From NCBI GenBank assembly GCA_030523725.1, contig JAUNHV010000002.1, forward strand, positions 62,001 to 126,000: 64,000 nucleotides of DNA, written 5' to 3'. A program made the translations under genes and the position numbers. Source of the DNA: Synergistaceae bacterium (GTDB lineage Bacteria; Synergistota; Synergistia; Synergistales; Synergistaceae). The notes beneath the pieces were generated by a model. It was not told where the DNA came from and made no database searches. It saw only the letters and a program-made list of their open reading frames with translations. Numbering within the stretch: the first letter of the stretch is position 1; the number at the start of each line of letters is the position of its first letter. Shown in pieces: positions 58,536 through 61,648 of the stretch.

Positions 58536-58542
58536 TGAACTG

Positions 58543-58595
58543 CAAATAACAAGCACAGGTAGTTTGTAATACAAATTACCTGTGCTTGTTATTTG
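58543..58595. terminator. Long hairpin after metG
   Basis: The arms 58543-58567 and 58571-58595 form a stem of about 25 bp with one mismatch and a 3-nt loop. A strong U-run is lacking after it, but length and position suggest it ends the transcript. Confidence 0.65.
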
Positions 58596-58636
58596 TCGGC
58601 AAAGTGTTGCTAGTTGTATTTTTTGTCAAGTTTTAT

Positions 58637-58665
58637 TTGACGTAAAATTATTTTAATAATATACT
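58637..58665 (+). promoter_or_regulatory. Promoter of the membrane-module genes
   Basis: TTGACG (58637-58642), exact 17-nt spacer, TATACT (58660-58665), 38 nt before the first ATG. It indicates that the three membrane genes form their own transcription unit. Confidence 0.7.
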
Positions 58666-58703
58666 AACACCGTCGTGGATTTTAGCACGAAATTTATTTT
58701 TTT

Positions 58704-60296
58704 ATGGTGAAGTATATGAAAATTTTAGATGCTCTAAATTTTTTTTATAATATTCCGATTGTTTGGTATCCAATTTTTATATTGTTGTTAGGTAGCTTAT
58801 TTTTTAGTTTTTTCCTGATTAGAAACCGTTTTTTCACACGCTCCAGGAAGGAATGGATTTATTTTTCACAACCAACACTTAAGAAAATATTTACCTTTTT
58901 GATGTTGATTTCACTGCTTTTTTGCCTTATGATTTGGGTAAATTTGATGAGGTTTGTTCCAGATAGACTTGCTAACTTTGTGACGAAAGATTCTTTGCTT
59001 GTTGCTGGAATGGCCAATGCGGTCGATTATGCGGTAAATTTGGATGCATTTGGTTCTTTTTCTGCCTTATTATTTTCTTTGATACTTTTTTCCTCTGCAT
59101 TATCTGCAGCTTTTGATAAGGATTCTGTCTTTACACCAAGCATAGCGATTTTTGAAATCTTGGTTTTTACGGGTTTTTTAGGAATTTTTTATACAGATTC
59201 ATTGTTTATTATTGGATTCTGTTTGATGGTGGTCCAACTAGGGATTTCAGGTTTGATTAGGCAGTGGGCAAGGGGCGAAGATAATTCGGATGGTGTAAAA
59301 ACAAATGTTTTCTTGCGTTTATTGTTAGCTAGTTTGTTTCTCTTGGGAGTTGCGCTATTGAAATTACGCTATCATACAACTCTAATATCAGCCTTGGTTA
59401 TGCCACTAGTTGATTCTCTGGGAACAAAACTTGCATTTGTATTTATTACTGCCCCGTTACTGTATCTTTTTGTAAAACCGAGTGGACATATTTCTATACC
59501 AAGCATGAATGTTTATTTTAAACTGAAATCCTTGATAGCCTTTTATGCATTTTTGAAGTTATTTTTCTTACTTTTTGCACCAATTGAAGGTTATGAAAGA
59601 GTTTCCTTATTTTTGCTAATTACTGGTATATTGTTGGTCCTTTTTGCTTTGATGCTTGCTTGTAAAGAGCCAAGTCCATTATCTATGATGAATTCCACTG
59701 AATCATTTATAAAAGGGTTGCTTTTAATTGCTGCAGGGATTGGACAATATGGAATTTACTCAGGTGAGAAAGCAATATTTTTGGGAATACCTGGTTTGCA
59801 GGCAATGCTGATGATGTGGATGTTCTTTGTGCCACTTTTAGCATTGTTTTCTTATATGACCGCATATATGGAGCAAAAAGTTGGTGAATTTTATCTTTGG
59901 CAGATTCCTGCCCTATTGAAGAAAATTCCATTTTTAATTCTTATTCTGGTCCTGATAGTGTTTACTGCAACTGGAATTCCGCCATTTGGAGGTTTTATTT
60001 TCTATCAGTTGTTGCTGCGGGCTAGCCTATTTATTTCACCAACTCTTACATACGTTTTATTCATGTTAAGTCTGCTTTTTCTGTTGTTTTCGCTGCGTTT
60101 TATTTTAGCAATTGCCTTTGCCTCTGCTTCATCAGCCGATGGGGTGTCAAATATTGCTTTACCAACATTAGAAAAGAAATTACATATCCCCATGATTATT
60201 GCTTTTTTACTCTGTTCTATTTTTATTTTCTTTCCCGGACTTATTTTTGATACATTAATTTCTTCTTGTGTAGAAGCACTAACCATAGTGTTTTAG
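58704..60296 (+). CDS. NuoN/MrpD-like antiporter-type membrane subunit
   Basis: Very hydrophobic 530-aa protein with some 13-14 helices. FTATGIPPFGGF (about 420-430) is the hallmark of the NuoL/M/N and Mrp antiporter family. Two lysines sit where the family has its buried proton-path lysines: K242 in SLGTKLAFVF and K285 in YAFLKLFF. The family Glu of the fifth core helix seems replaced (FCLMVVQLG, Q178) and the usual PLH is PLL, so the proton path is degenerate. It starts an apparent three-gene unit with a 99-aa membrane protein and an NuoH-like protein. An ATG at 58716 is an alternative start. No catalytic complex subunits are adjacent. Confidence 0.72.
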   Translation: MVKYMKILDALNFFYNIPIVWYPIFILLLGSLFFSFFLIRNRFFTRSRKEWIYFSQPTLKKIFTFLMLISLLFCLMIWVNLMRFVPDRLANFVTKDSLLVAGMANAVDYAVNLDAFGSFSALLFSLILFSSALSAAFDKDSVFTPSIAIFEILVFTGFLGIFYTDSLFIIGFCLMVVQLGISGLIRQWARGEDNSDGVKTNVFLRLLLASLFLLGVALLKLRYHTTLISALVMPLVDSLGTKLAFVFITAPLLYLFVKPSGHISIPSMNVYFKLKSLIAFYAFLKLFFLLFAPIEGYERVSLFLLITGILLVLFALMLACKEPSPLSMMNSTESFIKGLLLIAAGIGQYGIYSGEKAIFLGIPGLQAMLMMWMFFVPLLALFSYMTAYMEQKVGEFYLWQIPALLKKIPFLILILVLIVFTATGIPPFGGFIFYQLLLRASLFISPTLTYVLFMLSLLFLLFSLRFILAIAFASASSADGVSNIALPTLEKKLHIPMIIAFLLCSIFIFFPGLIFDTLISSCVEALTIVF

Positions 60297-60322
60297 AGTA
60301 TACGATTAAGGGAGGAATTATC

Positions 60323-60622
60323 ATGTCTATATTTAAAATAGCAACCGGTTTTATTGTTTGGGATGTATTGAGCTTCTTTTGCCTTTTACTTGTTTTTGGT
60401 TTTATAATTCTTGTAGTAATGTCATTAATTATGAAGCCAAAGCTGGAGCGTACGGAAAATGTGCAGCGTCCAAGCTTCCAGTTTTATATGGCAGATTTTT
60501 ATTTGGAAAAGCTTTTTAAACATTTTATCGCTACATTGTTTTCAAATCCTCTAAAAAGTGTAGAATTTCAAATAATGACTGCTGCTAGCATTTTTATAGG
60601 TCTGTTATGTTCAGTTTTGTAG
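60323..60622 (+). CDS. Small membrane protein of the NuoN/NuoH-like module, unknown
   Basis: I do not recognise this 99-aa protein. A hydrophobic helix (about 12-37, VWDVLSFFCLLLVFGFIILV) is followed by a basic turn (MKPKLERTE), an aromatic amphipathic stretch (about 50-78, FYMADFYLEKLFKHFIATLF) and a second helix (about 82-99). GGGAGG precedes the ATG at 60323; the longer frame from 60266 lies inside the upstream gene. The helix - lateral amphipathic segment - helix layout recalls the C-terminal arm of NuoL/HycC proteins, but that is speculation. No Cys motif, so it is not an iron-sulfur subunit. Confidence 0.65.
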   Translation: MSIFKIATGFIVWDVLSFFCLLLVFGFIILVVMSLIMKPKLERTENVQRPSFQFYMADFYLEKLFKHFIATLFSNPLKSVEFQIMTAASIFIGLLCSVL

Positions 60623-60649
60623 GAAAATATTTGTGGGAGATAGGGTAAG

Positions 60650-61648
60650 ATGAATTTTTTGAATTTCTTTTTCTTTCCTGCTATTCTACTAAGTGCAGTA
60701 TTTGCTTTTTCGTTTTTGGTAGAAAAAGTTCGTGAAAGATTACAGATTTATTATTATGCAACACATAAAAAATTGTTGCTTCCAAGTAGTAATTACATTA
60801 GATTTCTTAATGTTTCTTCACTCCCGAATGGTGCGAATGCTAAAGCGTGTTTTTCTTTGTCAATTTTATCTTTTGCCTCTCTTTTTATTGTAACATCCGC
60901 TTTACCATTTTCTTCTTTTGTTCCACTGTCAGTTAACAGAGGTGATTTATTGCAAATTGTTTACTTTTTGCTTTTCTCTGAGCTGTTACTATTATCTACA
61001 TTTTTAGCATTGCGTAGTGAACAGGCAATTTCACTTGCACTTGATGAATTGGCGAAATTTTTTCGTTTTATAGCAGTGTATGTAGCTTTTTTATTTTTTT
61101 TCGCTTCTTATCTAACTACGAATTCTGTGGAGCTTGATCCCTTTAATGCAAATTTACTATTGATTTTTCCAACAATTACGGACATGTCGTTTCGTGGTGT
61201 GATCTCAATTTTGCTTTTTATAGTGTTGATTATTTTAGCAATTCCGACAAATCATGAAACTAGAAGTTATTCAATCATTTCTGATGTTGAGATGCCCGAG
61301 TTTGCTGGTGTTTCCCGTTTACTTGTGCATTTTATATCTATCTTTAGAAGTGTATTGTTTGTATTTATGCTGTGCTACTCGCTGGTTCCATACGAGAGCT
61401 TATATGGCAGATTTGCAGTTTTTGATACAACATTAATGGGGCAGTTTATCTTTTATATTTGCTTTATGTTATTTGTCTTTGTAATGGCGGTCATTATTGT
61501 ACCTTTAGTAAAATTAGCTTATAGCAAATGTATGCAACATTTTCCTAAACGATTTGAAATATACACATTTATATTTCTGACCTTTATTGCAGTTGTATTG
61601 ATGGCATTAGAGGAAGATTTACTTGTGCAGGAAGCGGCATCATTCTAG
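60650..61648 (+). CDS. NuoH/HycD/EchB-like membrane subunit, degenerate
   Basis: Hydrophobic 332-aa protein with about eight helices, resembling subunit 1 of complex I and of group 4 hydrogenases. VEKVRERLQ (24-32) lines up with the ERKVxARLQ start of HycD/EchB, and TNHETRSYSIISDVEMPEFA (200-219) continuing GVSRLLVHF with the THLELTMIHE ... SG loop of the hydrogenase branch. The arginine-rich RxGP motif of true NuoH is missing. GGGAGAT lies before the ATG. It is preceded by the NuoN-like and 99-aa genes. Probably the anchoring half of a membrane module whose partner is not in this window; glnS follows. Confidence 0.6.
   Translation: MNFLNFFFFPAILLSAVFAFSFLVEKVRERLQIYYYATHKKLLLPSSNYIRFLNVSSLPNGANAKACFSLSILSFASLFIVTSALPFSSFVPLSVNRGDLLQIVYFLLFSELLLLSTFLALRSEQAISLALDELAKFFRFIAVYVAFLFFFASYLTTNSVELDPFNANLLLIFPTITDMSFRGVISILLFIVLIILAIPTNHETRSYSIISDVEMPEFAGVSRLLVHFISIFRSVLFVFMLCYSLVPYESLYGRFAVFDTTLMGQFIFYICFMLFVFVMAVIIVPLVKLAYSKCMQHFPKRFEIYTFIFLTFIAVVLMALEEDLLVQEAASF

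Follow-up and report, generated by a model that had tools for sequence, protein, structure and literature searches.

Background

On the prevailing view, complex I and its relatives came about by modular assembly, in which a catalytic arm was coupled to membrane parts of the antiporter type. The closest described relative of the locus reported here is the membrane-bound hydrogenase (Mbh) of Pyrococcus furiosus, a group 4, Mrp-linked enzyme whose structure (PDB entry 6CFW) is the single solved complex matched by all three proteins of the locus. In the solved Mbh, the two transmembrane (TM) helices of MbhI and its lateral helix join the module of MbhM to MbhH, and the MbhI loop contacts the catalytic subunit (PMC7684303, PMC11228991). 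Antiporter-fold (PF00361) subunits also occur outside complex I in DabB of the DAB2 CO2-uptake complex and in MpsA; in DabB the pathway residues of TM7/TM11 are preserved and the partner is DabA (PF10070), whereas the gene trio described here has lost the pathway residues and keeps homologues of MbhI and MbhM instead. The trio shares the H, I and M subunits, their order, chromosomal slot and folds with Mbh and with the complete clusters of other Synergistota, but its loci are without MbhJ, K, L and N, the Mrp subunits, the catalytic-arm loops and the proton-path residues.

Features of the locus

The window (the whole stretch of 64,000 nucleotides of Synergistaceae DNA that was analysed) belongs to a genome of 1.55 Mb (G000) that was scored 100% complete. 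The three genes, designated A, B and C, and the features around them are as follows.

58542..58596, no strand assigned: hairpin of 26 bp in the gap between metG and the module (folding against shuffles)
58637..58665, + strand: putative sigma-70-like promoter TTGACG-17-TATACT (10/12 matches; weak evidence)
58704..60296, + strand: protein A, MbhH-like antiporter-fold subunit, 530 aa, canonical proton-path residues lost (profile and AF2 model)
60323..60622, + strand: protein B, MbhI-like clamp, 99 aa, two hydrophobic segments (profile comparison)
60650..61648, + strand: protein C, MbhM/NuoH-like, 332 aa, without the RxGP loop and the acidic TM5-6 loop
61674..63326, + strand: glnS, constant downstream neighbour (syntenic context, outside the module)

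A previous reading of the window, made from the sequence alone, had described an orphan complex-I-type membrane module (a NuoN-like protein, one of 99 aa and a NuoH-like protein) lacking a catalytic arm. This description is supported by the results below, and the flanks that it gave, metG and glnS, agree with the ORF layout; no catalytic gene was found near A, B and C in the neighbourhood within the window. The motif TGIPPFGGF, noted in the first protein, is present at residue 423 of A, and GGGAGG lies upstream of ORF B. The promoter that it proposed exists as a site at 58637 with 10/12 matches, but such sites are not commoner than in shuffled sequence (15 in the region versus 13.3 +- 3.8, i.e. 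no excess). The hairpin at 58542-58596 has a folding energy of about -38 to -40 kcal/mol (z -8.7), a value equalled by 0 of 200 shuffles, and is likely a transcription terminator or insulator. It is perfect and unusually long, and sets metG apart from A.

Identity of the subunits

Profiles built from 18-19 relatives were compared with the PDB. Protein A yielded chain H of 6cfw (E 2.8e-26) and protein C yielded chain M of the same complex (E 5e-13), whereas the formate hydrogenlyase subunit 7z0s_D was matched by C at E 1.6e-4. Regarding B, the sole PDB match was 6cfw_I at E 0.05, obtained with a profile that contained one intact MbhI and was therefore partly circular. Comparisons of profile with profile (hhalign), which are free of this circularity, gave E 3e-43 for A and MbhH, E 2e-8 for B and MbhI (probability 95, controls below 2) and E 1e-23 for C and MbhM, and the six other cluster subunits used as negative controls gave scores near zero.

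The AF2 model of A (pLDDT 78, pTM 0.83) resembles the antiporter-like chains of complex I, Mrp and MbhH, and the presence of the antiporter fold is borne out by model and structure matches together; the Mrp Na+/H+ antiporter subunit MrpD shares the fold and distant similarity (7d3u_D, 7qru_D, 6z16_D), but A is without key MrpD-type residues. The model of C (pLDDT 75, pTM 0.76) resembles NuoH/MbhM chains, with 6cfw_M giving the top TM-score among the matches listed. The alignment of C with HycD/EchB proposed from the sequence alone stands as to the NuoH-type fold, which C has in common with HycD/EchB, but MbhM is closer and the hydrogenase is absent. Protein B shows the layout of MbhI, i.e. an N-terminal TM helix with a conserved W, a loop and a C-terminal TM helix, the loop being partly missing in comparison with intact MbhI. 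Assignment of the three proteins to another transporter family was ruled out, since profiles and folds indicate Mbh. A, B and C are MbhH, MbhI and MbhM of an Mrp-Mbh type [NiFe] hydrogenase, in the ancestral gene order.

No Pfam match was obtained for the window copies of A, B or C. PF00361 was matched by 7 of 18 family members of A (best E 1e-9), the window copy not being among them, and the only NCBIfam match of A was a sub-threshold one to cation/H+ antiporter subunit D. Since G000 is without any PF00361 match, Pfam-based annotation would leave A, B and C as hypothetical proteins.

Distribution and origin

The trio was found in 24 of 53 Synergistaceae genomes (12 genera); all three genes were read in 18 loci, and glnS adjoins the trio at every locus whose neighbourhood was read. 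These counts take related genomes as separate, and some of the assemblies are fragmentary. A search across the phylum was sharply bimodal: 24 orphans, all of them in Synergistaceae, scored E < 1e-160, while the values for full-length MbhH from the remaining families ran from about 1e-38 to 1e-60. The orphans form one clade (support 100/100) with long branches. A single-sequence scan of genome contigs gave no match; outside Synergistota the coverage was one limited alignment scan, which returned 12 named loci.

The hydrogenase large subunit (Complex1_49kDa) occurs in 80 of 188 Synergistota genomes and in 0 of the 24 with the trio. Neither the large subunit (PF00346) nor the small subunit (PF01058) was present in G000 or in any other of the 24 trio genomes, and the same holds for MrpB (searched as MnhB, the marker of the Mrp sodium module). 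Among the 53 Synergistaceae, large subunit, small subunit and MnhB were found in G004 only, the holder of the one complete cluster, so that MrpB was not found in 52 of the 53, a further difference from the Mrp antiporter, and 28 of the 53 carry neither trio nor hydrogenase; the large- and small-subunit searches were validated by matches in G004 and in control genomes. G000 itself gave no match to PF00361, PF00346, MnhB, Oxidored_q6 or HypD. HypD is generally required by [NiFe] hydrogenases; it was detected in four Synergistaceae genomes (G004, G005, G024 and, partially, G065) and is absent in 22 of the 24 trio genomes including G000, the exceptions G005 and G065 carrying the trio. A catalytic arm encoded elsewhere in the genome was ruled out by these family searches (large subunit, small subunit, MnhB, HypD); the complete operon at another place, which the sequence-only reading had named as a finding that would count against it, was likewise looked for and not found.

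Complete clusters, present in other Synergistota families and in one Synergistaceae genome, have the order MrpE, F, B, C followed by MbhH, I, J, K, L, M, N (22 loci; in the divergent complete-type locus L123, MrpE and F were not detectable) and mostly lie beside gltX and polA. Reduced loci share this arrangement, e.g. polA< gltX> <glnS <C <B <A, and the occupation of the same slot identifies the trio as a positional orthologue that was reduced where it stood. In the genome of the window, trio and glnS are located elsewhere and do not adjoin gltX/polA. The trio is what in-situ loss has left of an ancestral Mrp-Mbh hydrogenase in one branch of Synergistaceae.

Gene integrity and selection

Divergent sequences, and the very long branch of the window copy in the tree, would fit a non-functional remnant decaying after loss of the hydrogenase. 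The frame of A is, however, uninterrupted in the genomes found: no copy has an internal stop, and the TAG listed for G000 falls past the end of the ORF. Between congeners, dN/dS (NG86) was mostly 0.04-0.17 (A and C in five genera, B in one), 0.26 being reached once, by C between the two most divergent congeners. The single clade, the A-B fusion, the conserved gene order and the newly invariant residues described below argue in the same direction. The trio is kept under purifying selection; decay is a most improbable explanation, rejected at the family level by dN/dS and intact ORFs. The stop and start codons of A and B commonly overlap. In two loci of one genus (L029 of G028 and L030 of G012) A and B are fused as one ORF of about 630 aa, which recalls the MbsH' arrangement of the MBS complex.

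Residue changes in A and C

The 19 orphan copies were compared with intact MbhH and MbhM, numbered after locus L040. All 19 copies of A have lost the TM5 residue Glu149 and, by deletion, the segment that carries TM7 Lys229. Other residues stand in place of His353 and Lys361, and TM12 Lys416 is kept as K/R in 17 of 19 (Y434 in the window copy). New invariant residues of A (19/19) are Q178, R205, K337, W372, P377, Q435 and R439, and K258 is a conserved basic residue (17/19). Protein C is without the RxGP loop and has lost D213, E216 and E220 of the acidic loop, and mostly E206; it retains D104 (19/19), E/D228 and R244 (MbhM of L040), and has acquired the invariants Q102, D163 and R223 (19/19). 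The losses in A and C map to the proton path and to the side turned towards the catalytic arm.

The loss of the core Glu and of RxGP, already suspected from the window copy, holds across the 19 copies. The two lysines that had been considered well placed do not: K242 is K in 5 of 19 and L in 12 of 19 copies, and K285 corresponds to Arg in 17 of 19 copies and in 22 of 22 intact MbhH, a general Arg/Lys position and hence not the pathway Lys. The ion-translocating reading of that stage, taken as a standard path, finds no support, the key residues TM5 Glu and TM7 Lys being absent in 19 of 19.

Conventional proton or sodium translocation through a preserved antiporter pathway is accordingly improbable, although the antiporter fold and the TGIPPFGGF-type TM12 region are retained, the TM12 Lys persists as K/R in 17 of 19 and D104 of MbhM in 19 of 19, and the TM5 Glu is dispensable in DabB (PMC13144422). 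Against it stand, besides the missing TM5 Glu and TM7 Lys and the replaced His353 and Lys361, the loss of the acidic MbhM loop, the window copy without a TM12 Lys and G000 without MrpB. With neither an engine nor a standard proton path, redox-driven pumping by the trio is very unlikely.

Neighbouring genes

Asparaginase genes lie beside the reduced trio (L021-L030, L036) and beside complete Mbh clusters (L039, L106, L108, L109, L112, L113, L123). The neighbours asparaginase, gltX and polA are explained by ancestral synteny. Asparaginase, glutaminase and glnS were dropped as functional partners, asparaginase also adjoining complete clusters. The trio is also often accompanied by glutaminase and by a symporter of the glutamate/aspartate type. 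Genes judged by eye to be CbiM, CbiQ and CbiO-like, of a cobalt/nickel ECF transporter, lie directly upstream of A in L032-L034, in genomes without HypD; they were set aside as a partner, being confined to one genus. At the locus, no DabA (PF10070) gene adjoins the trio.

These neighbourhoods bear on the main rival explanation, according to which the trio would serve as an anchor or coupling platform for a soluble enzyme encoded elsewhere. A precedent is the antiporter-fold subunit DabB2 (PF00361, outside complex I), which pairs with an unrelated subunit (PMC13144422), and C keeps both the MbhM fold and several MbhM positions flanking the lost loops (E/D217, R233). The survey for a conserved partner that had been recommended, carried out over 18 loci, recovered none: only the ancestral asparaginase and glnS recur. 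Moreover, what has disappeared from MbhM and MbhI is the loops turned towards the catalytic arm. A coupling platform is considered rather unlikely.

Proposed function

The trio without its catalytic subunits apparently does a new membrane job in altered form. After deletion in place of the arm (MbhJ, K, L, N) and of the Mrp sodium module, the MbhH-MbhI-MbhM core remained; since MbhI ties the module of MbhM to MbhH in Mbh, the retained trio comprises pump, clamp and coupling subunit, which are in physical connection there. A, B and C probably assemble as one complex, in which B would hold the MbhM-like C to the antiporter-fold A; the A-B fusion, the overlapping starts and the Mbh structure are indirect pointers to this. 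The rewired polar residues within the membrane would most likely move an ion or a small charged solute, and the driving force would be a membrane gradient, not electron transfer. We rate as about even the chance that the trio is such a stand-alone complex, with both its assembly and its translocation activity inferred. The missing equivalents of TM5 Glu, TM7 Lys, His353 and Lys361 argue against proton pumping, and the window copy is without the TM12 Lys as well; neither a conserved substrate gene nor a partner gene marks the trio operon in the neighbourhoods read.

The trio represents the reverse of modular assembly: the engine and the sodium module were removed, and pump fold, clamp and coupling subunit were kept together under selection in 12 genera. 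Its role alone, and the residues needed for it, would put to the test which contributions H, I and M make apart from redox-driven pumping. The trio was not described in the literature on Synergistetes hydrogenases and orphan antiporter subunits covered by a limited search, with subscription journals mostly outside it.

A second MbhM paralogue

A second orphan MbhM paralogue, designated d0 (about 290-305 aa, no Pfam match), was found; examples are as follows, with about 16 further loci.

L088:9743-10660: d0
L091:9621-10532: d0
L184:8238-9110: d0

All 19 loci read have d0 next to a divergent DUF1850 gene. At 15 of these loci it directly follows a TAXI-type substrate-binding protein and its TRAP permease; of the other four, two are cut by contig ends and two, of genus g6, have no transporter there. 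With E 2.6e-40, the paralogue stands nearer than C to intact MbhM, and it shares with C the loss of the arm-facing loops. Of the 24 trio genomes 22 carry it, whereas hardly any of the remaining Synergistaceae do (Fisher p 1.4e-10 with genomes as units, shared ancestry not corrected for); in G000 it was not found. A tentative possibility is that, after loss of the hydrogenase in one lineage, complex-I-type subunits were recycled twice for gradient-driven transport, once as a free-standing MbhH-I-M complex and once as d0, an extra gene in a TAXI-TRAP operon.

A very diverged d0-like ORF lies beside DUF1850 at 8377-9201 of L193 (G036), in a genome without Mbh and trio.
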